64,000 bases of DNA from Tachypleus tridentatus (taxonomy: Eukaryota > Arthropoda > Merostomata > Xiphosura > Limulidae), in NCBI RefSeq assembly GCF_004210375.1, contig NC_134833.1, positions 22,375,396 to 22,439,395 of the forward strand, written 5' to 3'. Below are positions 13,976 through 62,079 of the stretch, piece after piece; the stretch's first letter is position 1, and the number at the start of each line of letters is the position of its first letter. The notes under the pieces were generated by a model. That model worked only from the letters and a program-made list of their open reading frames with translations, ran no database searches and was not told where the DNA came from. The translations under genes were made by a program, and so were the position numbers.

Positions 13976-14254
13976 TTTACAATGAAGTTTATTATAGTCA
14001 AACATAAAATCATTCAGTATTATAGTAGCTCTGTTAGAATTAAACAGCGTAACAAAAATAAAGTTAGTAATTTGCGAGTTAATCTGTTTCTAAGTGGCCG
14101 TTGTAAGTTGGCTTACATGCGATTTATATGTTGTAATGACTCGGTCAGTGGTAAATTACTAATTAAACGAAGCAATAGCTCAAACTTTATGCAGATGTAA
14201 TATAATATCATGACTTGCAACTCGTGATTTTAAAATGACGTTTATAGTTTCATT

Positions 14255-19077: not shown

Positions 19078-20618
19078 CACACTGCTGGCCAAAAAAATAT
19101 GCACTTTGCATTATTAGACTCAACCACTTATTTGAGTAGAGCTTCGAAAGATGAAAATAAAAAAAGGGAAAATAAAAAAAAAACGTTTTTAACATTTAAT
19201 AGGAACAATGTGAACAGTATGAAATTAGCCTAAATACTAGCTGGTCAAAGTTTAAGACCATACTGAAACGAAGTCCAAAACAGGGTAGGGAATGCCCAAC
19301 AAGAGGTTTCAGTGGTGTTGCACGACCGTCATTGCGAATAAATGCAAATATTTGCTTTAGCATGATCGATATAAGCGTTTGCAGAAGGCTGGCTGAAATG
19401 TTATTCCAAGTGGTGAAGATGGCTTCACGAAGATCATGCATCATGTTCGGAATTAACGTTCATTTCTACAGACTTCCCTTTCTACCCACCCCAAACATTT
19501 TCAAAGGGGTTCAGTTCGGGCTGACATGCTGGATGATCCAAAAGAATCACATTATTCACCAGTAAAAAGTCCTTTGTCCAGCGGGCATTGTGGATTGGAG
19601 CGTTGACCTGCTGAAAGATCCAGTCATTTCCACACAAGCGACGGCCTTCAGTTAATAAGGATGCTTTTTCCAACATGCCAATGTAGCCAGCTGCTGTTTG
19701 ACGTCCCTGTATAACCTGAAGCTCCATTGTTCCATGGAAGAGAAAGCACACCAGATCATGATGGAACCCTTTCCACTGTGTCGTGTAGAAAATGTCTTCG
19801 GTGGGATATCCTTATCGTAACAGTAACGTTGGAAGCTATCTGCACCATCCAGGTTATTTTTTTTTTTGTCATCAGAGAACAAAACTTTCTTCCACTCTTC
19901 TTCGTCCCATGTTTGGTGCTTCTCAGCAATGTTTAACCGAGCTGTTTCGTGGTGTGAAAGGAGACGTGACCTTTTTAAAGATTTCTCTCGTAAATTCCGT
20001 CTTATTGTTCTTGAGCTGCATTCTGCGTCTGTAAGGGCCTTAATTTGGTTCGACGATCGGCTGGTGTCTTGCCGGACAACCCGTCGAATCCTCATACTTA
20101 ACGCCGGCGAAATTTTCTTGGGCCGACTATTTGAAATTCTCATTCCGTATCCCTCAGGGTATTTTAAGAAATTTGCAACAGCAGTGTTACTACACCCAAT
20201 CTCACCAGCGATGACACGTTGAGAGAGACCTTGCTTTTGCAGCTCGACAATTCTGCCACGTTCAAACTCTTTCAACTTTTTAGACTTTGCCATGTTTTTA
20301 CCCAAACATAACACAGGGATGTCAGTGGGAAATGTTGACAACGCTAATGCTTGAACACAAATAACTAAATTTCGCTACGTGTTTACCAGTTAACGCTTCG
20401 TTTCAATATGGTCTTAAACTTTTGACCAGCTAGTATTTAAGCTAATTTCATAATGTTCACATTTTCCCTATTAAATGCTAAAAAAGTTTTTTATTTTTAT
20501 TTTCTCTTTTCTTGTTTTTATCTTTCGAAGCTCTACTCAAATGAGTGGTTGGGTCTAACAACGCAAAATGCATATGTTTTCTTTATGTTTATTGGTCTTA
20601 AGATTTTGGCCAGCAGTG
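19078..20618 (-). mobile_element. Tc1-type DNA transposon with IR/DR ends
   Basis: About 1.54 kb, with imperfect terminal inverted repeats of roughly 190-220 bp starting CACTGCTGGCC at both ends. It is flanked by TA (20619-20620; 19076-19077 with an extra CA), as expected of Tc1/mariner elements. Each long end holds an outer and an inner copy of a CTGGYCAAAANNTTAAGACC motif; the left outer copy is partly deleted. The single gene inside is read on the minus strand and is broken. Confidence 0.92.
19196..20293 (-). pseudogene. Tc1-type transposase, broken
   Basis: The start at 20293 gives MAKSKKLKEFERGRIVEL, followed by a Tc1-type helix-turn-helix (QKQGLSQRVIAGEIGCSNTA). It continues to a second DNA-binding region and the catalytic domain. 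The first catalytic Asp is present (LFSDDKK), the second is replaced by Val (QQVNAPIH; the family usually has QQDNAPIH), and the Glu is kept (NPFENVWG). The reading frame shifts near 19730 and again near 19470, and the C-terminal DLREAIFTTWNNIS block is in a third frame. The protein would be inactive. Confidence is high for the family; the order and motifs were read directly. Confidence 0.9.
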
Positions 20619-25439: not shown

Positions 25440-26035
25440 ACTACCATTGTTATAAAAGCTATAATATAATACAGTGGTAATTGGATATTAAAGATACAAC
25501 AGTAATAATGGTAGTTGGATATTAAAGTTTTAACAAAGGTAGTTGTAGTTGGATATTAAAGCTATAATAATAACAGTAGTAATTGAATATTAAAGCTACA
25601 AAAATAGCAAGAGTAGCTGGATATTAAACCTATAACAATAGTAACAGTAGCTGGATATTAAACCGATAACAACAGTAACAGTAGCTAGATATTAAACCTA
25701 TAACAACAGTAACAGTAGCTGGATATTAAACCTATAACAACAGTAACAGTAGCTAGATATTAAACCTATAACAACAGTAACAGTAGCTGGATATTAAACC
25801 TATAACAACAGTAACAGTAGCTAGATATTAAACCTATAACAACAGTAACAGTAGCTGGATATTAAACCTATAACAATAGTAACAGTAACTAGATATTAAA
25901 CCTATAACAACAGTAACAGTAGCTAGATATTAAACCTATAACAACAGTAACAGTAGCTGGATATTAAACCTATAACAATAGTAACAGTAACTAGATATTA
26001 AACCTATAACAACAGTAACAGTAGCTGGATATTAT
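25440..26035. repeat. 34-bp minisatellite, about 16 copies
   Basis: Units of TAACAACAGTAACAGTAGCT then GGATATTAAACCTA. GCTGG and GCTAG versions largely alternate, giving a 68-bp higher-order period through 25650-25930. The first copies are more diverged. Confidence 0.93.
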
Positions 26036-26631
26036 AACTACAACAGAAGTAGAACGTGAATGATAAAAAATAACTCTAGTTTAATGTGAAAGCTAAAACT
26101 TTCCAATGATTGCTGTATGGGGAGACTATGCTGTTAAAGCTACAGATGTGAGTGACTGTTATTTACGAGAGTTAAAAGAATTCCAATGAGTAAAGCATAC
26201 TTGTTATTAGATAGTTGGTTAGTCCAACCCTACAAGATTTTAACATGTACGACTATACTTTAAATGTTATCCAGTCCAATAATTTATGTTCACAGCCAAG
26301 TTATTGTGATATTGAAACTGTGACGCAAGACAGCACGATGTTTCTCTTTTTATGTTAATCTCGCTCCCAACATAGCCATTTCAGAAACACACACCTGGAA
26401 TTTCCACCAATTAACTGTTTCGTAATAACGTCGTTTATCAATACACTAAAAACCAGTCAAAACGCATTGAACAGGTCACCGTTTTCACATGTTACATTCA
26501 ATTCCACGTTTCTGAAGTTTTTTTTTTTTTTCTGAAATATAAGCCATCCACAGGAGAACTGGCTTTAACTGGGAGCTTTCAGCCTTGACAACACAGGTTT
26601 GTGACATCACGCGTGTGAAAGAAAAAGGTTC
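26036..26631. other. Unique-looking sequence upstream of candidate promoter
   Basis: No repeat was recognised. A T run lies near 26519-26532. No coding exon was seen. Confidence 0.4.
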
Positions 26632-37207: not shown

Positions 37208-37307
37208 GAAATAGTAATGAAAAGAATATTGTCAAATTTGGTTATTGTTCTATTTTTCACTTCTACGTTCACTGTTCATGGATTGAAAAAGAGAAAGAAA
37301 CGACAAG
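37208..37307 (+). CDS. Peroxidase exon 1: signal peptide and polybasic motif (ATG at 37217)
   Basis: The acceptor TTGTTTTACAG ends at 37207 and the ATG follows at 37217. It encodes [20 protein letters not shown] then [10 protein letters not shown] and ends in phase 1 before GTAGGATAAC. The 3' end of the exon is itself the first unit of the tandem array that follows, so exon end and 5' splice site have been multiplied downstream. If the intron is retained, the frame meets TAG at 37343. Confidence 0.88.
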
Positions 37308-37488
37308 GTAGGATAACAGTGTTGTGTATATATATATATATATAGAGAGAGAAAGAAGCGATAAGGTAGGATAACAGTGTGGTGTATTTATATATATATA
37401 TAGAGAAAGAATCGACAAGGTGGGATAACAGTGTTGTATATATATATAGAGAGAGAAAGAAGCGACAAGGTAGGATAACAGTGTTGTG

Positions 37489-37520
<32 letters not shown>

Positions 37521-37669
37521 AAGAAGCGACAAGGTAGGATAACAGTGTTGTGTATATATATATATATAGAGAGAAAGAAGAAAGAAACGACAAGGTAGGA
37601 TAACAGTGTTGTGTATATATATATATATAGAGAGAGAAAGAAGCGACAAGGTAGGATAACAGTGTTGTG

Positions 37670-37709
<40 letters not shown>

Positions 37710-40700
37710 AAGAAGCGACAAGGTAGGATAACAGTGTTGTGTATATATATAGAGAGAGAAAGAGAGAAAGAAGCGATAAGGTAGGATAACAGTGTGGTGT
37801 ATTTATATATATATAGAGAGAAAAAAAGAATCGACAAAGGTGGGATAACAGTGTTGTATATATATATATAGAGAGAAAGAAGCGACAAGGTAGGATAACA
37901 GTGTTGTGTATATATATACAGAAAGAGAGATAGAAAAAAAAAAAACGACAAGGTGGGATAACAGTGTTGTGTATATATATGTATATATATAGAGAGAAAA
38001 GAAGCGACAAGGTGGGATAACAGTGTTGTGTATATATATATACAAGAAAGAGATAGAAAGAAACGACAAAGGTGGGATAACAGTGTTGTGTATATATATG
38101 TATATATATATAGAGAAAGAAGCGACAAGGTAGTGGGATAACAGTGTTGTGTATATATATATATATATATATAGAGAGAGAAAAGAAGCGACAAAGGTAG
38201 GATAACAATTGTGATGATGTATATATATATAGAGAGAGAAAAGAAACAAAGGTAGGATAACAATGTTGTGTATATATAGAAAAAGAAGAAAAAGACAAAA
38301 TGGGATAACAATGTTGTTGTATATATAGAAAAGAAAAGAAAACAAGGTAGGATAACAATGTTGTGTATATATAGAAAGAGAAAGAAGCGACAAGGTAGGA
38401 TAACAATGTTGTGTATATATAGAAAGAGAAAGAAGTGACAAGGTAGGATAACAGTGTGGTGTATTTATATATATATAGAGAGAAAGAAGTGACAAGGTAG
38501 GATAACAATGTTGTGTATATATATACAGAAAGAGAGATAGAAAGAAACGACAAGGTAGGATAACAGTGTTGTGTATATATGTATATATATAGAGAGAAAG
38601 AAGCGACAAGGTAGGATAACAGTGTTGTGTATATATATACAGAAAGAGAGATAGAAAGAAACGACAAGGTAGGATAACAGTGTTGTGTATATATATGTAT
38701 ATATATAGAGAGAAAGAAGCGACAAGGGTAGGATAACAGTGTTGTGTATATATATGTATATATATATATATAGAGAGAAAGAAGCGACAAGGTAGGATAA
38801 CAGTGTGATGTATATATATATATATAGAGAGAGAGAAAGAAGCGACAAGGTAGGATAACAATGTTGTGTATATATAGAAAGAGAAAGAAGCGACAAGGTA
38901 GGATAACAATGTTGTGTATATATAGAAAGAGAAAGAAGCGACAAGGTAGGATAACAATGTTGTGTATATATAGAAAGAAGAAAGCGACAAAGGTGGGATA
39001 ACAATGTTATTGTATATATAGAAAGAGAAAAGAAAGCGACAAAGGTGGGATAACAATGTTGTGTATATATATATGAAAGAAAAGAAGTGACAAAGGTAGG
39101 ATAACAGTGTGGTGTATTTATATATATATAGAGAGAAAGAAGTGACAAGGTAGGATAACAATGTTGTGTATATATAGAAAGAGAAAGAAGCGACAAGGTA
39201 GGATAACAGTGTGGTGTATTTATATATATAGAAAGAGAAAGAAGTGACAAGGTAGGATAACAGTGTGGTGTATTTATATATATATAGAGAGAAAGAAGTG
39301 ACAAGGTAGGATAACAGTGTGCTGTATATATATATACAGAGAGAAAGAAGCGACAAGGTAGGATAACAATGTTGTGTATATATAGAAAGAGAAAGAAGCG
39401 ACAAGGTAGGATAACAATGTGGTGTATATATAGAAAGAGAAAGAAGTGACAAGGTAGGATAACAGTGTGGTGTATTTATATATATATAGAGAGAAAGAAG
39501 TGACAAGGTAGGATAACAGTGTTGTGTATATATAGAAAGAGAAAGAAGTGACAAGGTAGGATAACAGTGTGATGTATATATATATCTAGAGAAAGAAGAA
39601 AGCGACAAGGTGGGATAACAATGTTGTGTATATATAGAAAGAGAAGAAGCGACAAAGGTGGGATAACAGTGTGGTGTATTATATATATAGAAAGAGAAAA
39701 GAAAGCGACAAGGTAGGATAACAATGTTGTGTATATATAGAAAAAAAAAAGAAGCGACAAGGTGGGATAACAGTGTTGTGTATATATATATATATAGAGA
39801 GAAAGAAGTGACAAGGTAGGATAACAGTGTTGTGTATATATATATATATATAGAGAAAGAAGTGACAAGGTAGGATAACAGTGTTGTGTATATATAGAAA
39901 GAGAAAGAAGTGACAAGGTAGGATAACAGTGTGCTGTATATATATATACAGAGAGAAAGAAGCGACAAGGTAGGATAACAATGTTGTGTATATATAGAAA
40001 GAGAAAGAAGCGACAAGGTAGGATAACAATGTGGTGTGTATATATAGAAAGAGAAAGAAGTGACAAGGTAGGATAACAGTGTGGTGTATTTATATATATA
40101 TAGAGAGAAAGAAGTGACAAGGTAGGATAACAGTGTTGTGTATATATAGAAAGAGAAAGAAGTGACAAGGTAGGATAACAATGTTGTGTATATATAGAAA
40201 GAGAAAGAAGTGACAAGGTAGGATAACAGTGTGCTGTATATATATATACAGAGAGAAAGAAGCGACAAGGTAGGATAACAATGTTGTGTATATATAGAAA
40301 GAGAAAGAAGCGACAAGGTAGGATAACAGTGTGGTGTATTTATATATATAGAAAGAGAAAGAAGCGACAAGGTAGGATAACAATGTTGTGTATATATAGA
40401 AAGAAAAAGAAGCGACAAGGTAGGATAACAGTGTTGTGTATATATATATATAGAGAGAGAGAGAAAGAAGCGACAAGGTAGGATAACAGTGTGCTGTATA
40501 TATATAGAGAGATAGAGATAGAAAGAAGCGACAAGGTAGGATAACAGTGTGCTGTATATATATATATAGAGAGAAAGAAGTGACAAGGTAGGATAACAAT
40601 GTTGTGTATATATATATAGAGAGAGAGAGAGAAAGAAGTGACAAGGTAGGATAACAGTGTGGTGTATTTATATATATGTTAACTTAAGGACGATAATAAA

Positions 40701-43700
40701 CTGAAAGGTTTTTTTGCTGCACGCTCAGTATTAATGACTAAACGTCCTCGTCAGTCTGCTTGCTAGCATTAAAAAGTCTTCTTGTTTCACTTACTGCACT
40801 CACCGGAATCACTTACTAGTGATACTGAACCTAAACCATAATTTCCAGTTGTCTCTAATGTTTGTCTGTAGCTACGAGATACAAAAATCATTTAATATTA
40901 TTAGTAACGAGCTCCCTACAATTAACTCTTTGAGTTAATGGACTGTTGAGCTGCTCTGTTAAGTTAATATTATCTGTCAGTTGTAATCGTTACTACATTT
41001 ATAGGTAAATAAAAGGAGGGCTAAGTTACTTTGCAGTTACGTCACTGACTTTAATTAGCCAATGAGAGAAACTGGTTCTTTCATTCTTTAAGCTAAGACG
41101 TTGTTGTTGTTTTTTTAATTTTAGCTACAATTGCTGAATGCGGTGATTCGCGCTACGTCAGTTATAGTTTAGGATGTCAGTATTTTAAATTACATTAATT
41201 TAGCCATCGGTAAAGTATCTTTTCGTGTGTTTTAATAAACATGTAAACAGAAACACTTCAGCTAACATCAGATAACGAAGTTTGTGTTATGGCCAGCTGA
41301 ATAATTTTGAACAATGTCAACACAGTTACCATCAAAATATACGTATATTCAGAAAGTAAGAATGAATTACTCTTTATTTAGAAATACGTTAGTACACCTT
41401 CGTAGTTTTATATTTCGCGGGATATTATCTTTTTAATCTTTAGAAATGTTATTGTAACACTTACAATGCTTCAATTTCAAGAATAGTAGTGAAATCGCTG
41501 ACTCTAGTCGTCTGATGCTTTGCTGTGAAATATATGTATTATTTTATAAGTTACTGGTTACATGTGAGTGATTGTTGGATGTAAGATAATAAGTGTTATT
41601 GACCACACGTGTATGATTGTTGTACATAAAACAAAGAGTGTTATTGGTCACACGAGTATGATTGTTGTACATCAGACAAAGAGTGTTATTGGTCACACGT
41701 GTATGATGGTTTTACACAAGTCAAAGAGTGTCGGTTCGGCATGGCCAGCTGGTTAAGGCATGTGACTTATAATCTGAGGGTCGCGAGGTCGAATCCTGGT
41801 CACACTAAACATTCTCGTCCTTTCAGCTGTGGGGGCGTTATAATGCGACAGTTAATCCCACTATTCATTGGTAAAAGAGTAGCCCAAGCGTTTGCGGTGG
41901 GTGGTGATGACTAGCTGCCTTCCCTGTAGTCTTACACTGCTATATTGGGGACGGCTAGCGCAGATAGCCCTCGTGTAGCAATGCGCAAAATTAAAAAAAC
42001 AAACAAACAAAGAGTGTTATTGGCCACATGTGTATGATTGTTGAACGTAACATAAAGAGTGTTATTGGCATCATGTGTATGCGTGTTTTACATAAGATAA
42101 AGATTATTATTGGCCACACATATGTGATAGCTGTTTATAGGACAAAAAAATAACTGCTGAATGTGTTCACTTAACATAAATTAACCTAGTGTCTCTCTGA
42201 AATGTCCAAGTGTTTATGTTTCATTGAAGAATCCATTCAAGTTTTTCTTTTCCTTTATTTCAAACTTGTTTTTCCTTTCCTTACGGCTGGTCACCTCCAA
42301 CTTCCAACTGTCGTAAAGTTGATTCAGTCCAAGCATTCGTCTCAGAACTGATATAAATATTCAAATAACAACAGTCTATCTTTCGTCGTTTGTAATAAAC
42401 AGTGTGAGAAAACAGAAAAAGAGCAGGTTTTACTGAATGTAAAAGTATAACATAGTGAAGTATATAGCCTCAGTATTAAAGCTTTTTACAGGTGTTGGTA
42501 TATTCTAATATGGCCGCTAGGGGTGTAGTGCTACTTGCAGTTAAACATAGCTCTGGCTAAGGGAGAAACATTTTACAAGCTAGCTGGTTACTAACCCTGA
42601 ACTTCTTCAAGAACTTAATAACAGGATCTTATGAGGCGTCTTCTTCATTCACAAATTCTTTATTCAGCAAATATACCCAGATGTCCACCAGGTGACGTTG
42701 GTTCACTTCCACTCCAGTTTGGGAGCGGAATTACCCGTTGTAGAACGACAAGTTTTCAACGCGTCAGTGTCCACGTGAAACAAACCTATGGTATAAAAAT
42801 GTTTTATTCTATTGGTCCACTTTTTCTTTAATGCATATTTATTTTATTTTTCTCACACACGTTTGACGTTAAAACAAATAAAATATTTTCCTAAACAACA
42901 AGCAGGAACTACAGAATTAGTTCAGTAATGTCTCCTTCGAGAAGAAGTTTCTAACCCTAACTCTCTGGGGAATATTTAAACTCCAAGTGACTTATGTAGA
43001 TACAACTGAAAATGTGTGGGTTACACGATTCACAGACCACTGGGTTATTTTCCACAACTAGACTCGATCTCTTCCAGGTTTTGTAGAAGCTAGATTTAAA
43101 AGTATGATTAATTTCAGGAAAACTAACTATACTTTTTGAAGAGTATCAGGTAACCTACAAAGTTCTGTAACCTAAATCTTCATACAGGATTAGAACACAC
43201 ATTTTTATAAACTGTTATAAATCAAATTTTCATAAATGATTATAATCCAAATTTTCATAAATGATTATAATCCAAATTTTCATAAACTATTATAACCCAG
43301 ATTTTCATAAACGGTTTGAAACTAAATTTTCAGAAACGATTATAACCCAAATTTTCATTAATTATTATGAGCTAAATTTTCATAAACAGTTGTAACCCAA
43401 TTTTTTTTATAAATGATTATAACCCAAATTTTCATAAACTATTATAAACGGTTGTAACCCAAATTTTCATAAACTATTACAAACGGTTGTAACCCAATTT
43501 TTCATAAATGATTATAACCCAAATTCTCATAAATGATTATAACCCAAATTCTCATAAAATAGTATACACTAAATTTTCATAAAGGGTTATAACCCAAATT
43601 TTCATAAACTATTTTAAGCAAAATTCTTATAAACTATTATAATTGGAATTTTCATAAAGGATATAATTCTTAGAGAGGATACATTTGACATTTCTCATTT

Positions 43701-46700
43701 GATTTTTATGAGACCGATACTCCTAATAAGGAATATATCTTCGATAAATTAGGATATATATAAAATAAATCTAACGATATAATTATCCCAAAAGCATACA
43801 AGTTTTTCCTATTCGATCTATTATTTACTTTAGTTAGAAATTCTTATTGATTTTTTCCGCGCTTTGTTGTATAACATATGATAAATTGAACATATAACCT
43901 AAATACCTAATACAGGTGTATTACATTATATCAATAGACGTAACTAGTTATGCCATAGTTCGATCAGATCGCGGACCGGCATGGCCAAGCGTGTTAAGGC
44001 GTGCGACACGTAATCTGAGGATTGCGGGTTTGCATCCCGATCGCGCCAAACATGCTCGCCCTTTCAGCCGTGGGGGCGTTATAATTTTACGGTCAATCCC
44101 ACTATTTGTTGGTAAAAGAGTAGCCCAAGAGTTGGCGGTGGGTGGTGATGACTAGCTGCCTTCCCTCTAGTTTTACACTGCTAAATTAGGGACGGCTAGC
44201 ACAGATAGCCCTCGACCAGCTTTGTGCGAAATTCAAAAAACAAACAAACAAACAAACATGCGATCAGATCGCATTTGGCTTACTTTCATCGTCTTCATAA
44301 ATGTAATCAAACTGAGGTTTTGTATAAAAATATATAACTTTGTGTATACTGTGGTGCACTTAAAGTGATATAATTCACTAGATATTGAGAGACGTTCCTT
44401 CATCATTGGTATTTTCGTACACTTATCCCTACAAATGTCCATAATTATTAAGTAAAAAAAAATGCCTGTGTTGAAATTGAGAAATAATTCATTACAACAT
44501 GTGTCCCAGAAATATGATAAATTGTGAAAGTTTTAGGGCATCACGTCTTGAGAACAGTGGAAAGACTTTTCACCCCTTTGGGAGTACTCCAGAAGAAAGT
44601 AGGTCCACCTTTGGCGTTAACCACAGTCTGAATCCGCTAGCGAAACTCGTCACCAACTTTAGGTGCACACCTTTTGGCAAAAGATCGCCACTCTTCTTAC
44701 AAAGCACTTCCAAACGTAATCAGGCGTTGGGGTCTGAACCAAATTTGGGTCGGAAGCCTGGGCGCTCTTTGTTTTAAACCACTATTAGAGGACACGACAT
44801 GCAGTATAACATAATGAGTTATTATGTTCAAAGACGTTTGATCATTTCTCAGGTAATTCCATGAATGCATGCGACAAAGCATTTTTCAGACTTTACAATC
44901 CTATCAAAACTGATACTAATATATCAAGTTTAAACCAATTAAAGCAAAGCAATTACATTAACTCGTCGTTCCTTGCAATGACCTTATATCCGAAGTACCT
45001 TCCAAGTCGTTGTCAAACCTAAACGAACCTTTCAAAAGAAATAAAACAATATCTTGATGGCTTTTATTTATCCTTTCTTTTAATTTTTATGCTCAAGCAC
45101 TCACGAAATCCAATGTTTTGAGTTCATGGGAAGAGTAAGTGGTTCATGTGATGTAATCTTTCTGTGGGACCTACCAACACAGATCTTCTGTGTGTTGTTC
45201 TCAGCTGTTACTAAAGCTCTTAGTGTTCGACTTCAGGTGTAATTTCTTGACCAATGAGAATTTTATTTTAGGTGACTACACTGATATTACACATTGCCAT
45301 TTCCAAAATATTCAAATATGTTTTCAGAACGTTATCCACAGTGCATATGAGTGAAATATTTCGCTCACGAATATCTCTAACTTGGTATCTAATAATTCTT
45401 TCCTTTTGAATTTGTGAACTATTTTCCTCGAAGTATCTTGACTTCAACTAGTTCTTAATTTCACTTTGACAGTAGAGGGTCTAAGGTTGTGGGGGGACAG
45501 GGGCTTATAACTTTTGTGGGCCCTATATCCCATCTAATTTAACATAGAATAAAATTATCAATGGGCCCCCATTAAGACCGTGGGCCCTACGGATGAGCCC
45601 CCTCTAGCCCCTACCTAAATACGCCAATGTAGCTGGGATATTAGTCTCATTTTTAGTTCGCGCCCGCGTCGCGCCAAACATGCTCGCCCTCCCAGCCGTG
45701 GAGGCGTTATAATGTGACGGTCAATCCCACTTTTCGTTGGTAAAAGAGTAGCCCAAGAGTTGGCGGTGGGTGGTGATGACTAGCAGCCTTCCCTCTAGGC
45801 TTACACTGCTAAATTAGGGACGGCTAGCACAGATAGCCCTCGAGTAGCTTTGTGCGAAATTCCAAAACAAACAAACAAACAGTATGTAGGCTTAAGACGA
45901 ACACAGTAGTTTTCCTTTGCTACGTAAGGTTTACCAGATACTATAGCAACACTGTACTGTTTCACTTATAATTACATAAACTCCACTTCATCATAAAACT
46001 TTGTATTCTTTGCTGTTATGCTTAAATGTTAATATTTTCTTCTACTTTGAACTTATCAAAAAGCATTCGATTTTCTTAACTGAGACTGAATGAATTTATT
46101 AATTCACAAAATATTTCTGTTATTTTGTAAGATATTCTGCTTTATTTTAGTATTCTCCGACAAATGATTTTCTAATCTGAATTAGCTTTCACGGCCTGGC
46201 ATGGTCAGGTGGGTTAAGGTGTTCGACTCGTAATCCGAGGGTCGCGGGTTCGAGTCCCCATCACACCAAGCATGCTCGCCCTTTCAGCTATGGGGGCGTT
46301 ATAATGCGACGGTCAATCCCACTATTCATTGGTAGAAGAGTAGCCCAAGAGTTGGCGGTGTGTGGAGATGACTAGCTGCCTTCCTTCTAGCCTTACACTA
46401 CTAAATTAGGGATGGCTAGCTCAGATAGCCCTTGAGTAGCTTTGCTCGAAATTAAAAACAAACAAACAAATTCACTTTCATCTATAATTAATTTTCTAAA
46501 CAGAAGGATACACCGTATTAAGTAAACAAACAACTAAATATGATTTAAAACACAAGAGCTTAATAATAAAACTAAAGATCAAACCTTAATATAAAGAATC
46601 TACAACATAAGTATATTTGTTTTATATTTGAAACTTCTAAATAAATATAATCATGAATTTTTGGGTTTCTTTCTTTGAAGAGCTCTTATAATTTTGAGTT

Positions 46701-49700
46701 ATTAATATTTTTGCTTTTACAATAATAATAATATTAAAATACATATCTTATATATAACTGATATAAAATATTACGTAAAGAAAACTCTTGTATTCTATAT
46801 ACAATATGCAATAATGAAACATCCTGAACTCTAAAGCGCACTGATGCTTTAACTTACCAAGTATGATATTTGTTTCTTAAGTAATTATATATTATTATTT
46901 GTAATATTTTGTCTCTGTTTGGTAAAAACACTTTACATTTTTTTGAACAATGTATTTTATTATTCATGGAGAAAATTACATAAAACTAATTCCTAAATGT
47001 TTTTATTTATATACAATGAACTTCAAATTATTTATAATGGCGTTTGTAAATCAAATGTTGCATCAATGTCTTCTTTTTTCGCTTAGTGAACTTACTATTG
47101 TTTATCTATCGTCATAATATTCTAGGTATGTATGAATAATATTGTTAACTTGTTGTCATGAAATGCTAGTTGTGTATCAATAATATTGTTAACTTGTCAT
47201 GAAATGCTAGTTGTGTATGAATAATATTGTTAACTTGTCATGAAATGCTATTTGTGTATCAATAATATTGTTAATTTATTGGCGTGAAATGCTATTTGTG
47301 TATAAGTAATATTGTTAACGTATTGTAATGAAATGCTAGTTGTGTATCAATAATATTGTTAACTTGTCATGAAATGCTAGTTGTGTATCAATAACACATT
47401 TGTTTCTTTACTTTTAATTAAATACTAGGTGTTTATCTATAATATAATTCCAATTAATGTAAATTAGGACTGTGTTTCATCCAGTTTCTCATTCTGTAAA
47501 TAATTTTAGATAAGCTAATAATTCAAACAAATGAAATGGTGTTCTGTCCAGTCTGATAATGTAGACTAAAGTAAGAACAGGACAGTATATATTGCGCAGT
47601 AACGGACATAGACATAAAAAAAAAAGTTAAGAAAATAAGAGAAGGTGTCACACGTCATAACCGTAATGTGTTGTGGTCGTGATTGAAATGTTATCTACTT
47701 CAATCAAGGTGTCACACGTCATAACCGTAATGTGTTGTGGTCGTGATTGAAATGTTATCTACTTCAATCAAGGTGTCACACGTCATAACCGTAATGTGTT
47801 GTGGTCGTGATTGAAATGTTATCTACTTCAATCAAGGTGTCACACGTCATAACCGTAATGTGTTGTGGTCGTGATTGAAATGTTATCTACTCATTCCTAG
47901 TTTACATAATTATGTTGAATTATAAAACGCCTTCATTAATTACTACTTGGTTATAAATTTTAAGTAAAAGCTTGTTTGTGTTGTTCTTATAGCTTTCGAC
48001 ATCTTTTGAAATGTTTTTTTGTGTGTAATTTTATGTTTAATGTCAAACTAACTGGATTCATTGCAGATTTAGGGTTCGATGCTCCCGTCATTTTTCCCGA
48101 ACAGAGTGAACCTTTGGAAGAAGTGTCTTGTACCACGTCCAAAGGAGCTCAGGGAACCTGTAAACACCTAACTAGCTGTGTGTTTACCTTTGATAGTGTG
48201 GATGATCTAGAAACGTCAACGTGTCGTCAGAGCAACAACGACATCGGCATCTGTTGTGCTGATCAACCAATTTCTTCAAGACAAGCTCCAAGTACTTGAT
48301 ACACATTTCTATATATCTCTGTTGACACACGCAAAAACATGTAACAAATAATTATTTTGTGTTAAAAGTTAAGTTAACGCTTTTAAGTTTATTTCTGTAC
48401 ATATAAAGATGAGTTGTCTGTCTGGTCTGAGTAGTTCTTGTGAGAAATTGGTTTAACTAATTTCGATGACGTTTGGTAGAGGAAGTTAGGTGGACTTTCA
48501 AATATTGAACTTAAATGCATAAGTAATCGGACTACTGGTTTGTGTTTCACAACCATTTAAATTTTATCGAGTTAATGCAGCACATCATGGCTTAATACCA
48601 CCCTGACGGACAGCTCATGTGCTATGGCTTAAAATAATGGGAAGGGTGGCATAAGTTCCCCTTTTATAGTCTGATCTTTAGTTCTGAAATTTACTTCTGT
48701 CAGTATAGTTATAAAATGTAAACATTGTTTTTAGATTTACTTTATAGACTCTGCTATGTGGGCGTTCTTTTGGGAGTAACTTATGGCTAAAATCTTTTGT
48801 ATGTGGGCGTCCCTTTGGAAGTAACTTATGGCTAAAATCCTCTGTATGTGGGCGTCCTTTTGGAAGTAACTTATGGCTAAAATCCTCTGTATGTGGGCGT
48901 CCTTTTGGAAGCAACTTATGGCTAAACTCCTCTGTATGTGGGCATCCTTTTGGAAGTAACTTAAGGCTAAAATCGAATTTTATATAGATAACAAAAATAA
49001 AGAATGTATTGTTGCTTTTAGGTTTCTGTAGGTATTCGTTCTCTATTGTGAATTTCCTCAGGAGGTTATAATGTTTAATATATCAATATTTTTATTATCG
49101 TACTTTGAAAATCGACGTTGTTTTATGAGATACCAGAATCTCTTAAAGTGGCCAATCATTGTGTGATATTGTTGGGTTTAAGGCAGAAAATATCGTTGAC
49201 AGTGAGGGTAGCCATCTAACAAAATAATAGCTTCTGATCTTTATATCTAAGAAAAAAAATATTTAATTACTTGTACGAGTTAATTTCTATTAATATAACT
49301 TAAACATATATTGATATATTTTGTTATTAAATGATTGTACATGCATACAGTGAGTTGTTATTCTAACTTGGACAAGAATAAGAACTCAAAAGACGAAATT
49401 TATTTGTGATGTACCGTCAGAAATATTTCATGTGAAGGATTTACCAGCATAACTGATAGTAAAGTAAAAAAAAAATTAATTTATTCTTATATAGGTCTGC
49501 AAATTTAAACTTCTTAAAAGTTATTTTGGTTTTAATCACGGATTTTCCATCAATCATTCAGTTTTACAGACTTCGAAAACAATATTTATTTATTTATTAA
49601 TCATCTAAGAATTTTTTTACAAATCGGGAAGAAACCATTTTACTATAATAAAAAAAAATGTTTACCATGCTGGATATTTTTATTATTATGCTTGTTATGT

Positions 49701-52700: not shown

Positions 52701-55700
52701 AAAACAACAACATTCGGATTAAATATTAAAAACAGTATGTTTTCTCAACAAAATAATCTAAATTGTATATTTTTTGTTTTGTTTTTTTTGCTCTTATATT
52801 TTTTTTCTTTTACTGAAATGCCCTGTTCGTGTGTCAAAAGTGTTGTGGGTAACGAAACAAAATACAAAACACATTTAGACGTAAGGTGCAAATATAAAAT
52901 GAACAATTTCTAATATACTTTCTGCGTGTTCCTTCGAAGACAATATTCATTAACTTGATTTATTTTCTAGATTGGATCAGAACGTCCAACAGATAACTGA
53001 CAGCCTTTCTAGTCTCAGTTTGAAGGGCACTGTCGCCAACTCTGTTTGTCCCATCGAACCTCCTTGTCCTTCAACAAAGTACCGAACCATAGACGGTAGT
53101 TGTAACAACTTGCGCAATCCTACCTGGGGCAAATCTTTTACCGCCTTCAACCGTATACTACGACCAGATTATGCTGATGGTAAGCAAACAGTCGCTTTAG
53201 ATATATGGAGCTTCGTTTATAAATATGTGGTGTATACCCTCCTTTGTAGGAATTTAAGGACACGCTTATTGTAGACATACTTACTTAAAAGTCCTCCAGT
53301 GGTGCAGCAGTAATTTTACAGTTATACAACACTCAAAAGGTGGAGGTTCGATTCCCATCGGGGAACGCAGCAGGTAGTCTGATATGGTTTTGCTAAAACA
53401 AAAACACACATATAACATTTTGTAAAAATTAATCGTGAAATATATGTCTCATGTTCTTTCACATTTCGAATACCTACTGACGTGATGGTTTATTTTGTAA
53501 TATTTTATTGATAATAAGTGTTGGGAGGTCGTTACTGTCGTAACGCAACGTTTCCTGATGATCGAAACACAACCAAAGAGGCCAGGCATGGCTAGGTAAT
53601 TAAGACACTGGACTTGTAATCCGAGGTTCGCGGGTCCGAATCCCTGCCACACCAAACATGTTCGCTCTTTCAGCCGTGGAGACGTTATAATGTGACGGTC
53701 AATCCCACAATTTGTTAGTAAAAATAATAACCCAAAAGTTGGCGGTGGGCAGTGATGACTAGCTGCCTTTTGTCTAGTCTAACTCTGCTAAATTAGGGAT
53801 GGCTAGCGCAGATAGTCCTCGTGTAGCTTTGCGCGAAATTCAAATAACCAAACCAGAGAAGGAACGAATAATAATATGTCCATTAAACTTTTCTAAATCA
53901 CACATCCCGTCTTCAGGAAATTCCTACATCAAGTGTAGACCAATAATTCGAGAAAACCAAAACAATTACAAGTATTATTTTTGTAAAACTGTAAATATTT
54001 GTAACTGGAATATTGGTCCAGAGGGAAGGGAAAAGCGGAAGACCTTTAAATTAACTTGTATATAGAACTACAACAAACAAACAAGTAAATATACTCCCGT
54101 AATCACAGAAAGCGGATTAAAACAAAGTTAAACCTCAACACAAGTTATTATCCATGAAATTCATGAACGAACAGCTGTTGATATGTAGTCCGTTCAATGA
54201 TGTGGAAATGTTTGATGTGATATTATTGCATAAAAGCAACTCTCAGAGCAGTTTATTGGGTTGATTTCTAATAACTATGATAACTACGATAAATGCCAAA
54301 GGCACTGGTATTAAAAATATTATTTAAAAATAAACTGACTTGAAAATTTCCTTAAAAGAAGAAATAGATTTAGGTAGCCGTTTAAAGTAGAAAGTTGTTC
54401 TTACAAAACCCCTTAGAGAAGAAATGGATTTAGGTAACCGTTTAAAGAAGAAATTTGTTCTTAGAAAACCCCTCAGAGAAGAAATAGATTTAGGTAGCCG
54501 TTTAAAGTAGAAATTTGTTCTTACAAAACCCCTCAGAGAAGAAATAGATTTAGGTAGCCGTTTAAAGTAGAAATTTGTTCTTAGAAAACCCCTCAGAGAA
54601 GAAATGGATTTAGGTAGCCGTTTAAAGTAGAAATTTGTTCTTACAAAACCCCTCAGAGAAGAAATAGATTTAGGTAGCCGTTTAAAGTAGAAATTTGTTC
54701 TTACAAAACCCCTCAGAGAAGAAATAGATTTAGGTAGCCGTTTAAAGTAGAAATTTGTTCTTACAAAACCCCTCAGAGAAGAAATAGATTTAGGTAGCCG
54801 TTTAAAGTAGAAATTTGTTCTTACAAAACCCCTCAGAGAAGAAATAGATTTAGGTAGCCGTTTAAAGTAGAAATTTGTTCTTACAAAACCCCTCAGAGAA
54901 GAAATAGATTTAGGTAGCCGTTTAAAGTAGAAATTTGTTCTTAGAAAACCCCTCAGAGAAGAAATGGATTTAGGTAGCCGTTTAAAGTAGAAATTTGTTC
55001 TTACAAAACCCCTCAGAGAAGAAATGGATTTAGATAACCGTTTAAAGAAGAAAGTTGTTCTTAGAAAACCCCTCAGAGAAGAAATGGATTTAGGTAATCG
55101 TTTAAAGAAAAAATTTGTTCTTACAAAACCCCTTAGAGGAGAAATGGATTTAGATAACCGTTTAAAGAAGAAAGTTGTTCTTAGAAAACCCCTCAGAGAA
55201 GAAATGGATTTAGGTAATCGTTTAAAGAAAAAATTTGTTCTTACAACACCCCTTAGAGGAGAAATGGATTTAGATAACCGTTTAAAGAAGAAAGTTGTTC
55301 TTAGAAAACCCCTCAGAGAAGAAATGGATTTAGGTAATCGTTTAAAGAAGAAATTTGTTTTTAAAATATTGTTCAAGAAAAAAATTGACCTTAGAAAACT
55401 CATTAAAGAAGAAATGGATTTGGGTAACCGTTTAAAAAAGAAATGGTTTTATTAAAAAACCGTTTAATGACTAAATAAATTCGAATTTTAAAAGTGTACA
55501 AAGTCTAAACTTCTAACAGATCAGTTGCGATGAGTACTTAGAAGATTGGTCTAAACACACATTTTTGTCGGCCTCTGCATATAGACCCATTATTTAAGTT
55601 TACCATCCTTAACATAAGTCTCATCTAAATAAGAAAGTGACGAAATAGACCATGAATTACTCGGATTTGTAACGTACAACATTTTATTTTATAGGACTTA

Positions 55701-58700
55701 CATTACCACGGATTGCTTCTGATGGGGGTCCTCTACCCAGTGCACGAGATGTCTCGGTGAAAGCGACCCCTGATGCAAACAAACCACACAGAGCGTTCAC
55801 CTTACTCATCATGCAGTTTGCACAGTTTCTAGATCACGACTTAACCCTAGTAGGGCTAACAAAAGGTAGGTTTAATATTACGTTGCAAAAGTCAAGCGTC
55901 GATATAAGAAAAAAAAATCCTGTATAAATACTATCGCAATTCTTTTGTTGTTACTGAGATCTTTAATGCAATGTTGTTCCTGATAAAAAAATAATTTAAG
56001 TAAGAAAAGTGCAATCGTTTCTAATTTGCACATTAAAAATAATTTGTTAACCAACGAGGAACGAATTTTCTTTTTACCTTGACTATTATGAAACATCTAT
56101 TTGATCTTAATGTTGTATTCCTTTAGAACTTTGTAAACGAATTAATTCGCTTTGATAACACCCTTTACCGATTGTCCACTAGCGAACGATGGGTCTGGAA
56201 TACTTTGCTGCAAAGAAGAAATCCAGAAAAATCCTAGATTGCGCCATCCAGCTTGCTTAGAAATTTCAATTTCGAAGGACGATCCCTTCTTTTCGAAACA
56301 TGGTGAAACATGTATGGAGTTTGTAAGGTCACTTCCGTCACCACGCCCACTTTGTTCTTTGGGTAAGCATCTGTTGGGGATGTTGTTAAGATTGTATTAA
56401 TCCGCCTTTAACAACAACGTAAGACCACTTTACATGGAACCATATTACTGTGAGCATTGTGTATTCATACATTCTCTTCTTTGTACATTTTTGAACTTAA
56501 CAAATAAAAATATATATAAAGTAAAATATTTGTGAAAACAGAAATTACATTAAAAAGCATGTCTACTGTTCCTCCTCATGACGTACTTTACACCCAAACC
56601 ACGTTGTGTCTTAATCAGGTTCTCGTGAACAGCTAAATCAATTAACGGCTTTCATTGACGCTTCGAACGTCTATGGATCTACTAAGATAGAGGAAGAAGA
56701 GCTTAGACAACATTCCAATGGTAAGTCATCTAATGAATGTCAACGGATAGAGTTTTTAAAGAATAGATAACACCTCAGAATCCTAGTTCTTTACTAAACG
56801 AAACCATCTAGTTGAATCGTGTATCTCCACAATGTTTAGTTGTTTCTTTCTAATCGATGTAGGTTTTTTATAATATAAGCTATTATTTAATCTTCAGTTA
56901 TTCTAGTAATGTTTTTATTTGTATTGTCTATTTATAATATAACCTTTTGTTTAACAACCATTCATTCCATTGTCGTTTGATATTGATGCTGTCACTTATA
57001 ACATAACCACTTATTTAATCTGTAGTGATTCCAGAATTGTCTTTATCACTATTGGCTCTTTATAACATAATCAATTACATTATGTAACACAAATTTTGTT
57101 CCTGGATAGTATATGTTATTTCTTAATTGCTTACGTTGCAAAAGTACAGAAAATGGCCATTATTCCTTTCAAACTTTGCTTTTGTGACCTGCACATTTTC
57201 ATTTATATAAGGTTTGAATAAAACAACATTTGAATCACGATTTACATGTATTTGTACTAAAGTTATTCAAAAATGTTTATACGTGAGTAATTTTTCGAGA
57301 TTTGCAACTGTAATGTAAATCACTTTCACGTATCAGCCCCCCATATAGTCTCACATCATGTTTTCGTTATACGCTCCTTGGTAGCGGCGTTCAAAGTCCA
57401 GTATATCTTGGTAGAAGTGCTCGCCTTGCTCCACTGAGTATACTCCCATGTTTTTCTTTAATTTATCAAGATGAGCGTCAAGGATATGAACTTTCAGGGA
57501 CATCCTGAAGCCCATGTTGCCGTAGTTCTTCACCAGAGCCTCAACCAGTTCCACATAATTTTCGGCCTTCTGATTGCCCAAGAAGCCCCGAACCACTGCG
57601 ATGAAGATGTCCAATCTTTTCTTCCTTCCTACTGAGCTTTTTGGGGAATTCTGTGCACTCCAAGATCTTTTTGTTTGTTGTCCAACGAAGTCATTATCTT
57701 TGACCTTTGCCTCAGACAGCTTAGAGAAGAAGTCTCGAAGGTACTTGAAGGCTGCAGACTCCTTATCAAGAGCTGTGACAAATTGTTTCATAAGACCCAA
57801 TTTTATGTGTAATGGTAGGAACAACACCTTCTGGAGGTTCACTAGTGGCTCACACTTGACATTGTGCCTCCCCACAGAGAACTCAGTCCTTTGTGGTCAG
57901 TGTTTCCTGTTGTAGTGCGCTGCAGTGTTCCTGCTGTCCCAAAGGAAGAGATAACAGGGAAACTTGATGAAGCCTCCTTGGAGACCCATCAGAAATGCCA
58001 CCATTTTGAAGTCTCCTTTAACCTCCTTTAACCTTATCATACTTCAAGGCTTCTAGCAAGGTCTTGACGCTGTTATATTCCTCTTTGAGGTGCACCGAAT
58101 GAGCCAGGGGAAGAGACGGACACTTATTCCCGTTATGGAGCAACACAGTTTTGAGGCCTTTGGATAAGTTATCAATGAAGAGGTGCCACTCGTTCGAGTT
58201 ACAGGCAATTCCAATTGCCCTGCACGAACTGGATACACTGTGGCAGAAGCAGACCCCATCTTGACGAGTGAAAAGGCTTGACAAACGTTGGTGACACTTC
58301 CTCTGACTTGAGACTTGTACACTTTCATTCTTGAAAATTCTCGTAAGTTCTACAATATTCTAGAAAATTTTTGTAAGTTCGAGAAATTTCTCTATCAGCT
58401 ACTCAACACTGAACCTACGTGGAATGTTCTGAAAAATGGGTAAATTTGAAAATTTCATTACCCAGGTCACAAAGGTAAAGTTTGAAGAGAAAAATAGGTC
58501 TTTTTTCATTTATTTTAGGCTTAAGCAATTGGAAAATAACACTTTCTTCCCAGGAACAAGAAAAAGCAAAAATTGTGTTACGTAGCGTTTATTTCTTCTT
58601 CAGTGATTCTAGTATTGTTTTTATTGATACTTACTCAATACAATAATATCTCCAATGCAATCCTTAGTAATATCAATGTTTAATATTAATAAAAACATAA

Positions 58701-61700: not shown

Positions 61701-62079
61701 AAAATTGTATTTAATAGAAAATAAATATTTGACGAAAACGAAATTACTTTGTTAAAATGTATTTACGTCAAACGTAAAATATTCAAAATTATTTAGAAAG
61801 CTAAGACAAATTGTGTTTAATTGAAGACTGGTTAATTAAAATTATTAAAACATCGCTGACGGAGTGGCTATGCTCGTGCAGGTGACGAACGTGCTAACGA
61901 GCAGGTTGATTTAGCTGTTCTCCATACTATCTGGATGAGGGAGCACAACAGGGTGGCCAGAGTTCTAGCCTATTACAATCCTGGCTGGAATGACGAAATA
62001 TTGTACCAGGAATCACGCCGAATTGTCGGAGCTGAGATGCAACACATTGTCTTCAACGAATTCTTGCCTCTTTTGTTAG
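37217..62079 (+). CDS. Animal haem peroxidase with N-terminal clip-like module (partial, 10 coding exons)
   Basis: Ten GT-AG-bounded exons join in frame for 514 codons; introns are phase 1 except the fourth (phase 2). Order: signal peptide (residues 1-22), polybasic KKRKKRQ (24-30), six-Cys clip-like module (about 55-100), a helical linker, and the start of the peroxidase domain at about 235. By comparison with myeloperoxidase these are visible: Gln303, haem-linking Asp306, distal His307 and calcium ligand Asp308 (AQFLDHD); the calcium loop T-A-F-I-D-A-S (386-392); catalytic Arg452 and haem-linking Glu455 (GDERANEQ). The product should be secreted and use hydrogen peroxide to oxidise substrates. 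The proximal His and C-terminus lie beyond the window. It is closest to arthropod chorion-peroxidase/peroxinectin types; the exact orthologue is unknown. Confidence 0.93.
37286..40676 (+). repeat. Minisatellite of about 63 units, each holding the exon-1 end and 5' splice site
   Basis: Units average about 53 bp: AGAGAAAGAAGCGACAAG, then GTAGGATAACAGTGTTGTG, then a variable TA run and GA run. The first unit overlaps the last bases of the signal-peptide exon, so AAG|GTAGGA-type donors recur about 63 times in the first 3.4 kb of the intron. Some units have GTGGGA instead. TA and GA lengths vary from unit to unit. The minus strand shows long open frames (up to 927 codons) made of this repeat; they are not genes. 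Confidence 0.96.
40677..41560. other. Intronic sequence, nothing recognised
   Basis: Intron 1 of the peroxidase gene; no repeat was recognised. Confidence 0.5.
41565..42115. repeat. 45-bp minisatellite interrupted by a SINE-A
   Basis: About seven units with GTGTTATTGGTCACACGTGT and ATGATTGTTGTACATAAAAC, split by the SINE at 41732-42004. Outer units are more diverged. Confidence 0.85.
41732..42004 (+). mobile_element. SINE-A inserted in a minisatellite
   Basis: Full-length element flanked by CAAAGAGTGT (41722-41731 and 42005-42014), a 10-bp target-site duplication taken from the minisatellite unit. Confidence 0.92.
42116..43195. other. Intronic sequence, nothing recognised
   Basis: No exon with splice signals in frame and no repeat family was seen. 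Confidence 0.45.
43196..43665. repeat. AT-rich degenerate tandem repeat
   Basis: About 18 units of roughly 24 bp around TTATAACCCAAATTTTCATA, with many substitutions and length changes, so an old array. Confidence 0.85.
43973..44260 (+). mobile_element. SINE-A, full length, 12-bp target-site duplication
   Basis: CGATCAGATCGC occurs exactly at 43961-43972 and 44261-44272. The element between runs from GGACCGGCATGGCC to the AAAC tail. A clear guide to the element's ends. Confidence 0.95.
44480..44890. other. Possible transposon remnant
   Basis: GTCCACCTTTGGCGTTAACC and nearby words have the look of an internal Tc1-like segment on the minus strand, but no motif is firm. Treated as uncertain. 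Confidence 0.25.
45476..45620. mobile_element. MITE-like element
   Basis: GC-rich island with imperfect inverted ends: ACAGGGGCTTATAAC then TGTGGGCCC on the left, GGGCCCTACGGATGAGCCCC on the right. No coding capacity. The ends recall hAT-type elements; this is a weak assignment. Confidence 0.4.
45662..45882 (+). mobile_element. SINE-A lacking its head
   Basis: Starts at CGTCGCGCCAAACATGC and runs through a well preserved body to the AAAC tail. Confidence 0.88.
46193..46470 (+). mobile_element. SINE-A, full length
   Basis: GGCCTGGCATGGTCAGGTGG head, GCGGGTTCGAGTCCC, body, AAAC tail. Confidence 0.9.
46471..47125. other. AT-rich intronic sequence
   Basis: Nothing recognised. Confidence 0.45.
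47126..47396. repeat. 41-bp tandem repeat, about 6 copies
   Basis: Units of AATATTGTTAACTTGTCATG then AAATGCTAGTTGTGTATCAA, with small indels in the third to fifth copies. Confidence 0.9.
47642..47892. repeat. 64-bp tandem repeat, 4 almost identical copies
   Basis: Units with AAGGTGTCACACGTCATAAC and CGTAATGTGTTGTGGTCGTG. The copies are the same by eye except at the ends, so the array is recent or kept uniform. It ends 175 bp before exon 2. Confidence 0.95.
48067..48291 (+). CDS. Peroxidase exon 2: clip-like module
   Basis: Acceptor CATTGCAG at 48066; donor GTACTTGATA at 48292, weaker than the others. Encodes residues 31-105. Six cysteines: C, 9 residues, C, 5, C, 14, C, 9, CC. This fits the clip pattern of arthropod immune proteases and related proteins. 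The intron phases on both sides are 1, so this exon could be skipped or shuffled without a frame change. Confidence 0.88.
48740..48972. repeat. 45-bp tandem repeat, 5 copies
   Basis: Units of TATGTGGGCGTCCTTTTGGA then AGTAACTTATGGCTAAAATC. As 45 is a multiple of 3, a minus-strand frame with a 15-residue repeat stays open; it is not a gene. In intron 2. Confidence 0.93.
48973..50233. other. Intron 2 remainder
   Basis: AT-rich; no repeat family or further exon was seen. Confidence 0.45.
50234..50359 (+). CDS. Peroxidase exon 3: linker
   Basis: Acceptor CATCCCTGCCTCAG (ends 50233) is chosen because it keeps phase 1; an AG at 50219 would break the frame. Donor GTAAGAG. Encodes [20 protein letters not shown] and a Leu-rich [11 protein letters not shown], probably helical. 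Confidence 0.8.
51160..51393 (-). mobile_element. SINE-A, full length with deletions
   Basis: Tail TTGTTTTGAATTTCGAGC, shortened body, head GACTATGCCGAGCC. In intron 3 of the peroxidase gene, opposite to transcription. Confidence 0.85.
52122..52248 (+). CDS. Peroxidase exon 4: pro-region
   Basis: Acceptor TCTCTCAACGTAG; donor GTAAGG after GCC AAA AG, so this intron is phase 2. Encodes [20 protein letters not shown] and [10 protein letters not shown], the typical helical stretch before the first peroxidase-domain cysteines. Confidence 0.88.
52971..53179 (+). CDS. Peroxidase exon 5: start of peroxidase domain
   Basis: Acceptor TATTTTCTAG; donor GTAAGC. Encodes [40 protein letters not shown] and RPDYADG, the highly conserved opening of animal haem peroxidases. 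Confidence 0.95.
53290..53415 (+). mobile_element. SINE-B, diverged
   Basis: CCTCCAGTGGTGCAGCAGTA head, GGAGGTTCGATTCCC, AACGCAGCAGGTAG, TTTTGCTAAAACAAAAACAC. In intron 5. Confidence 0.7.
53580..53855 (+). mobile_element. SINE-A, full length
   Basis: GGCCAGGCATGGCTAGG head, CGCGGGTCCGAATCCC, body, tail TAGCTTTGCGCGAAATTC. In intron 5. Confidence 0.9.
54324..55440. repeat. 60-bp minisatellite, about 18 copies, with 120-bp higher-order part
   Basis: Units of GAAGAAATAGATTTAGGTAG, CCGTTTAAAGTAGAAATTTG and TTCTTACAAAACCCCTCAGA. The left two thirds is made of near-identical single units; from about 55020 to 55380 two unit types alternate (TTTAGATAACCG and TTTAGGTAATCG), giving a 120-bp period repeated three times. 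The 60-bp length keeps a 359-codon minus-strand frame and a plus-strand frame partly open. In intron 5. Confidence 0.96.
55695..55865 (+). CDS. Peroxidase exon 6: distal haem side
   Basis: Acceptor TTATTTTATAG; donor GTAGGT. Encodes [20 protein letters not shown] and [16 protein letters not shown]. Gln303, Asp306, His307 and Asp308 sit here. Confidence 0.95.
56183..56362 (+). CDS. Peroxidase exon 7
   Basis: The acceptor TTGTCCACTAG (56182) keeps phase 1; an upstream stop at 56143 excludes a longer exon. Encodes [40 protein letters not shown] and RPLCSLG, all typical of the family. Donor GTAAGC. Confidence 0.92.
56619..56720 (+). CDS. Peroxidase exon 8: calcium loop
   Basis: Acceptor TTAATCAG; donor GTAAGT. 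Encodes [20 protein letters not shown] and [14 protein letters not shown]. Thr386, Phe388, Asp390 and Ser392 match the calcium ligands of myeloperoxidase. Confidence 0.95.
57081..58584 (-). mobile_element. TIR transposon, copy 2 (keeps 3' half of its gene), in intron 8
   Basis: Same family as 23714-25156, inverted: ends share GTAACACAA and TTGTTCCTGG, with inner words TGTGACCTG and the inverse CAGGTCACAAAGG. It holds the C-terminal part of the protein gene, read on the minus strand. It is antisense to the peroxidase gene. Confidence 0.8.
57351..58290 (-). pseudogene. Transposon-encoded protein, C-terminal part
   Basis: Minus-strand pieces in shifted frames. The first (58284 to 58018) reads [57 protein letters not shown]. 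The second (57875 to 57351) reads [60 protein letters not shown] and [14 protein letters not shown]. Between them the frame changes at least twice. From memory these belong to the same multicopy family as 24032-24852. The function is not known to me; a role in transposition is inferred from the terminal repeats. Confidence 0.7.
59618..59731 (+). CDS. Peroxidase exon 9
   Basis: Acceptor CTTTTCTCTTTAG; donor GTAAATCC. Encodes [20 protein letters not shown] and [12 protein letters not shown]. The donor sequence is duplicated 72 bp downstream. Confidence 0.92.
59768..59803 (+). other. Candidate 36-nt cryptic micro-exon
   Basis: GGTTCTTGCAG ends at 59767 and CAG|GTAAATCC recurs at 59804, a near copy of the exon 9 donor region. 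Including the segment would add a stop after five codons. Confidence 0.3.
60044..60363. mobile_element. Inverted SINE-A pair 1
   Basis: A minus-strand SINE-A (60044-60256) is joined directly to a plus-strand SINE-A tail half (about 60258-60363). Tails point outwards, so the two can pair as a hairpin. In intron 9. Confidence 0.85.
60791..61161. mobile_element. Inverted SINE-A pair 2
   Basis: A minus-strand copy (60791 to about 61000) meets a plus-strand copy (about 61001-61161) inside the body, at GTGTGACGGTCAATTCC. The two arms would pair over about 150 bp. In intron 9, 430 bp after pair 1. Confidence 0.88.
61180..61295 (+). mobile_element. SINE-B, diverged
   Basis: CCACAGAGACAGCAGTGAAA, TTGGGTTCGATTTCCC, AACGCAGTAAGTC, GTGGCTTTGCTATAAAATAA. 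In intron 9. Confidence 0.7.
61882..62079 (+). CDS. Peroxidase exon 10: catalytic Arg
   Basis: Acceptor TATGCTCGTGCAG; donor GTAAGG. Encodes [60 protein letters not shown] and LPLLLG, very close to the family. Arg452 and Glu455 are in place. The next exon, expected to carry the proximal His, is outside the window. Confidence 0.96.

Follow-up and report, generated by a model that had tools for sequence, protein, structure and literature searches.

The window, a stretch of 64,000 nucleotides from the horseshoe crab Tachypleus tridentatus, carries on its forward strand what looks like a gene for a secreted CLIP-domain animal haem peroxidase. Its putative leader exon (37208 to 37307, + strand) was read from the sequence behind the acceptor TTTTACAG; it has a start codon at 37217, encodes a leader of 30 residues that was called secretory type by eye, and ends in phase 1 at 37307, with a GT from 37308. 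The predicted 10.8-kb intron (37308 to 48066, + strand) starts within the tandem array described below and ends at the acceptor TTCATTGCAG|ATTTAGGG (the vertical bar marks the splice junction), which is in the correct phase for a CLIP-domain exon (48067 to 48299, + strand, its end being that of the open reading frame [ORF]; Pfam PF12032, with a score of 20.4 bits that barely clears the cut-off of 20). Four ORFs with peroxidase exons (PF03098) lie farther along the same strand, at 52954 to 53274 (profile positions 1 to 38, E = 9.9e-13), 55673 to 55927 (34 to 91, E = 1.4e-11), 56146 to 56400 (93 to 141, E = 9.9e-10), and 61860 to 62135 (211 to 289, E = 1.3e-34). Three further peroxidase pieces were found in a second copy of the locus; with the pieces of both copies combined, 386 of the 530 positions of the PF03098 profile are covered. 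The pieces follow one another in order on one strand, and the splice ends at 37307 and 48067 fit together, so that all the domains probably belong to one transcript. A protein combining CLIP and peroxidase domains has been reported in an aphid (PMC11673278).

The end of the leader exon overlaps the start of a single tandem array (37290 to 40677, + strand), for which TRF gave 62.9 copies in the window and a count of the core ATAACA gave 63 units, spaced 47 to 72 bp apart. Both counts agree with the sequence-only reading that preceded this analysis, which had described about 63 tandem copies of a coding-exon end plus its 5' splice site; the start that it gave, 37286, differs trivially from ours. 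The units follow a variable pattern, AGAGAAAGAARCGACAAG|GTAGGATAACARTGTKGTG(TA)n(GA)n, in which the 5' splice site is preceded by about 18 nt from the end of the coding exon and followed by intron sequence. In unit 1, these 18 nt (37290 to 37307) are coding and supply the last codons of the 30-residue leader, while the last unit (40625 to 40677, + strand) enters unique intron sequence, GTTAACTTAAGG, at 40678 and has an ending that matches that of the last unit in the second, 16-unit copy.

The exact 25-nt core has 36 matches in the genome (exact matches only), all of them inside the two copies of the locus, and a dispersed satellite or transposable element was rejected on this ground. A coding repeat was ruled out as well: TGA replaces CGA in the exon register of at least 18 units, so the units are not maintained as coding sequence, and each sense frame contains 55 to 76 stops. 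The minus strand has very long open frames in the same region (37269 to 40683, up to 954 amino acids, with two to seven stops per antisense frame); these were not accepted as genes, since the stop-poor composition of the unit explains them.

Donors in the array and their reading frames

The GT at 37308 to 37309 (+ strand; CAAG|GTAGGA) is presumed to be the authentic donor, as donors occur at the corresponding place in three paralogs and as it alone among the 62 donors of the window has an open frame into the CLIP-domain exon (exon 3). A donor-like G|GT[A/G] is kept in 62 of the 63 units, unit 1 included, and CAAG|GTAGGAT is identical in 45 of the 62 donor-bearing units. The earlier description of the donors as near-equal is thus fair for most units; it does not extend to unit 15, in which the donor (GTAGTG) is clearly weakened, or to unit 18, which has no GT. 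The shared donor is mediocre, scoring 4.6 bits against 8.9 bits for CAG|GTAAGT under a weight matrix, and forming a U1 duplex of −9.2 kcal/mol against −14.0 kcal/mol. Under this matrix, sites that match or exceed the score of unit 1 have a density of 17.6 per kb inside the array, compared with 0.48 per kb elsewhere on the plus strand of the window, a difference of about 37-fold.

For any downstream donor, the first in-frame stop is a TAG at 37343 to 37345 (+ strand; by frame reading), as the sequence-only reading had stated, and readthrough from the leader reaches it after 42 codons. The frame into the CLIP-domain exon is therefore open from donor 1 only, the other 61 donors lying past the stop, and the spacings of the donors modulo 3 are 0 in 30 cases, 1 in 21, and 2 in 10. 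The short copy has 14 donors, two of which are in frame; donor 2, situated 54 nt downstream, would add 18 residues. Since donor spacing modulo 3 varies, productive donors differ between the copies. Measured from 37208, the exon would be no longer than 300 nt for 4 of the 62 donors of the window and no longer than 500 nt for 7. The view that U1 is offered about 63 donors holds insofar as 62 of the 63 units retain one; as 61 of them lead to the stop and only 4 of 62 give an exon of up to 300 nt, the number that compete is probably much smaller than 63.

Nothing clear supports the maintenance of the donors by selection. Column consensus in the window alignment is 99% for the GT, 95% for the exonic part, 96% for donor positions +3 to +6, and 96% for TAACAGTG; the GT has the highest segment mean, yet many single neighboring columns reach 63 of 63. 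In the alignment of the short copy, the GT and TAACAGTG both stand at 100%, though 2 of its 16 units have lost the donor. The column consensus of both copies gave no clear sign of excess conservation of the donors; the units were located by ATAAC, so that the ATAAC columns are invariant by construction. Local RNA folding of 313 nt gave about equal pairing (0.32 to 0.34) at donors 1 to 4, with no preference for unit 1 among these first four donors.

Paralogs and a second copy of the locus

A genome search with the CLIP-domain exon, using a query that began with four residues (GFIA) placed in the intron by the final gene model, returned 17 matches, namely, the two copies of the locus and 15 others, of which the closest 3 (45 to 53% identity) were examined and the 12 weaker ones left out. 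A similar leader exon precedes the CLIP-domain exon in all three; a basic-Arg-Gln motif stands at the end of this exon or close to it, and a donor follows at the position matching that of the window. In the C7 paralog, the leader is MKITLSNVFVALLLISAFSVLKGKKRTKRQ and the exon ends in GGCAAG|GTAGGACA; in the C11 paralog, the leader is MKVTVGSLFILLITTISIQGKRERRKRQ and the exon ends in GACAAG|GTACGATA; and in the paralog at 85.5 Mb on C9, the leader is MKIAFPSVIFILYLDFSITLQTETKREKRQLE and the exon, two codons longer, ends in TTGAAG|GTAAGTTT. To be retained in the scans, leader exons had to contain a start codon and a hydrophobic stretch and to end at a phase-1 G|GT donor, and acceptors had to be in-phase AGs, more than one of which fits in C11 and C9; because the scans demanded it, phase is not independent evidence, and it is the likeness of the peptides and exon ends that counts. 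TRF found no array at the donor of any of the three paralogs in the 40 kb scanned. The exon end of the C11 paralog, AAACGACAAG|GTACGATA, is almost identical to the core of the array unit. This suggests that the exon end is the older state, which the paralogs still display, and that the array arose later. These similar, array-free leader exons support the earlier claim that the unit core is an exon end plus its donor and make it very probable that unit 1 is the real exon end.

The window and the second copy of its locus share a contig (C9), with the second copy 185.6 kb farther upstream. Compared at window positions 1 to 2522, 13300 to 14500, and about 25484 to 64000, it is collinear with the window, with 95 to 99% identity in the longest aligned blocks, the lower values falling in blocks with repeats; to the right of the window, identity drops from 97% to 91 to 92%. 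It has 16 units at the same exon-intron boundary, with a first-unit core and an ending as in the window, and donors are retained in 14 of the 16. The unit types ATAACAATG and AAGTGACAA occur 21 and 18 times in the long array and not at all in the short one, and a shared type, AATCGACAA, occurs twice in the long array and once in the short one. Given these shared and private unit types, the array probably predates the split of the copies, one of which probably changed length later. The suggestion that the array varies in length is thus borne out to the extent that two near-identical copies in one assembly have 63 and 16 units; whether they stand for polymorphism depends on their nature, as they may be alleles or duplicates.

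There is about an even chance, in our estimate, that the array is real while its length or the two-copy state results in part from haplotypes left unmerged in the assembly. A scaffold gap of 500 N (C9:22373606-22374105) separates the copies just left of the window, and the homology between them starts no more than 2 bases to the right of it. The gap and the start of the homology beside it favor unmerged haplotypes, so that the copies may be alleles; the 63 and 16 units would then be two alleles. A stretch of the left contig, L036 (C9:22337999-22338699), has copies of 99 to 100% identity at 21.6 Mb on C9 and 64.6 Mb on C19, with none reported near the window, which adds to the suspicion; the three copies of this C9/C19 stretch also argue against two simple haplotypes. 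A single mis-sized sequence would also not be expected to give two arrays that share their boundary but differ in their unit variants, which are ordered in each; flank substitutions of about 1.3% (20 of 1,542 and 15 of 1,204 aligned positions in two segments) are compatible with either reading. The multiple copies of L036 would represent duplications or unmerged haplotypes. Part of L036 (135 bases) also has an 82% match some 48 kb away from the C7 paralog, which perhaps reflects an old conserved neighborhood. About 8 kb of a satellite of about 57 bp precedes the gap; a query from this satellite gave diverged matches at the same two places (C9:21.6 Mb and C19:64.6 Mb) and did not return itself.

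Origin and behavior of the array

We consider it fairly probable that a minisatellite was seeded at the boundary of the leader exon and its intron and that donor 1 is mostly used, the next few donors rarely, with the products of the latter decayed. Array anatomy and the array-free paralogs point to duplication and spread: a stretch of about 50 bp, made up of the last 18 nt of the exon and roughly the first 35 nt of the intron, would have been duplicated, and slippage or unequal exchange would then have multiplied the donor within the intron, leaving unit 1 as the exon end. Most pre-mRNAs would be spliced from donor 1, which is expected to dominate, and the next few donors, owing to their equal modest strength, would be used at a low rate, perhaps a few percent. 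Their products, with a stop after 42 codons, would be destroyed by nonsense-mediated decay, and distant units would act at most as decoy U1 sites. Donor use, the leader, and decay are here read from DNA, and array length is length in the assembly. Counting against this explanation, the purine-rich, exon-like sequence before every donor may strengthen downstream donors beyond their 9-mer score, the local folding shows no preference for unit 1, and the GT does have the top segment mean in the window alignment.

A doubtful alternative, though the strongest of those concerning splicing, is that donor 1 alone is used and the array is an ordinary intronic minisatellite that includes the exon end. 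The locus is rich in minisatellites, with 15 arrays covering 16.6% of the window (merged by hand from the TRF list, with five places with short arrays excluded). Those at 54357 to 55363 and 25477 to 26045 align many times in the second copy and appear longer there. For other minisatellites of the locus as well, array length thus appears to vary from one copy to the other, so the instability of the donor array would not be unusual; these minisatellites resemble it in this respect and differ in that none was seen to span an identified exon end among the exons mapped in the window, which are not all of its exons. Long exons are usually poorly defined, and the small numbers of donors giving exons of up to 300 or 500 nt, together with the lack of clear excess conservation, would fit a passive array. 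Against it, the downstream units mostly have the same 9-mers as donor 1, and downstream units are used in human ABCA7 (PMC5954066) and, according to work citing Turri et al. 1995, in IFI6.

That the array is a regulatory device, in which its length sets the loss of pre-mRNA to unproductive donors or to U1 crowding and so tunes peroxidase output, possibly with skipping of the CLIP-domain exon, seems to us improbable. The roughly 37-fold donor density would suit such a device, as would the lack of any productive donor among the 61 downstream ones of the long copy, and in ABCA7 longer alleles are associated with reduced expression and with exon 19 being skipped more often (PMC5954066). The same paper reports that retention of the ABCA7 repeat unit is unchanged with the length of the variable-number tandem repeat (VNTR), and in the horseshoe crab the array is absent from all three paralogs examined, the donors show no clear constraint, and the second donor of the short copy is in frame, so that the stop trap is not conserved. 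We give equally little credence to a version in which an immune-type peroxidase is tuned by an array length that varies among alleles, with long alleles trapping splicing in unproductive donors and short alleles, if their first TA tract has a suitable length, using donor 2, which would lengthen the protein ahead of the CLIP domain by 18 residues that repeat the basic-Gln end. It is very unlikely that the array also supplies acceptors through which parts of it enter the mRNA as small exons: many units do have ATAAC, a UA tract, and TATATAG ahead of the purine-rich stretch, but none of the 157 YAG sites in the array reaches a pyrimidine fraction of 0.7 (such sites occur at 2.7 per kb outside it), a count that indicates few or poor acceptors only weakly, as the array maximum of 0.53 equals the value of the gene's own CLIP acceptor in the same crude count.

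Comparison with known donor-spanning repeats

The sequence-only reading knew of no described example of this form; that was wrong, as human ABCA7 (PMC5954066) and IFI6 (Turri et al. 1995, as cited in later work) have it. Intron 18 of ABCA7 contains a 25-bp VNTR whose first two bases are the donor of exon 18, and the donor of the second unit is used, with retention of one unit at 2 ± 1% independently of VNTR length (PMC5954066, available text). The likeness to the horseshoe crab array lies in a tandem repeat that includes what is, in the latter probably, the exon's own 5' splice site, so that its units offer donors; in an out-of-frame product from the second donor, which is predicted for the window; and in very variable length, which in the horseshoe crab is seen between two copies that may be alleles or duplicates. 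The two differ in that the ABCA7 unit is a C-rich 25 bp that starts at the GT, with alleles of up to about 10 kb, whereas the unit here is about 50 bp long with 18 nt of coding exon, lies in an arthropod, and is seen at the DNA level only. The minisatellite of IFI6 (6-16) reportedly has a 12-nt unit in about 26 copies. It provides multiple splice donors, and two downstream units serve as alternative donors (Turri et al. 1995 NAR 23:1854, as cited in later work). The likeness lies in a minisatellite that supplies multiple donors; downstream donors in IFI6 reportedly yield isoforms, in contrast to the long copy here, in which all downstream donors would meet the stop. Two other candidates were rejected as comparable cases, the miR-137 VNTR because its two donors are placed within the pre-miR-137 sequence in the available part of the source, and PMC3039753 because it concerns a promoter minisatellite.

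As in the ABCA7 and IFI6 type, the first unit contains what is, given the support of three paralogs for the exon end, probably the exon's own donor (37308), and the downstream units retain it: counting unit 1, a donor is present in all but one of the 63 units of the window and in 14 of the 16 units of the second copy. The horseshoe crab array is thus a clear further case of an arrangement previously described in at least two human genes, with a longer, exon-carrying unit. No arthropod case of a donor-spanning minisatellite was found in the open-access literature searched, a weak negative. The array suggests that the capture of a splice donor inside a minisatellite, as in ABCA7 and IFI6, also arises in an arthropod, and the near-identical copies with 63 and 16 units would offer a natural test of how many competing identical 5' splice sites are tolerated and of how the spliceosome chooses among them.

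Some minor features of the window can be added. An open frame of 240 amino acids on the minus strand (19652 to 20374) resembles, by our impression of the sequence, a Tc1/mariner-type transposase. The genome contains three coagulogen pieces with 82 to 91% identity to a coagulogen query and a fourth with 69%, which indicates a horseshoe crab, as does what we take to be a tRNA-derived SINE in the window. The motif TGTANATA, presumably a Pumilio-type site, occurs 57 times in the 3.4 kb of the array (37290 to 40677, + strand) and 15 times in the short copy, compared with 14 times on the plus strand and 7 times on the minus strand in the rest of the window; it is abundant because TGTG runs into (TA)n, and it would be relevant only if array RNA exits the nucleus.
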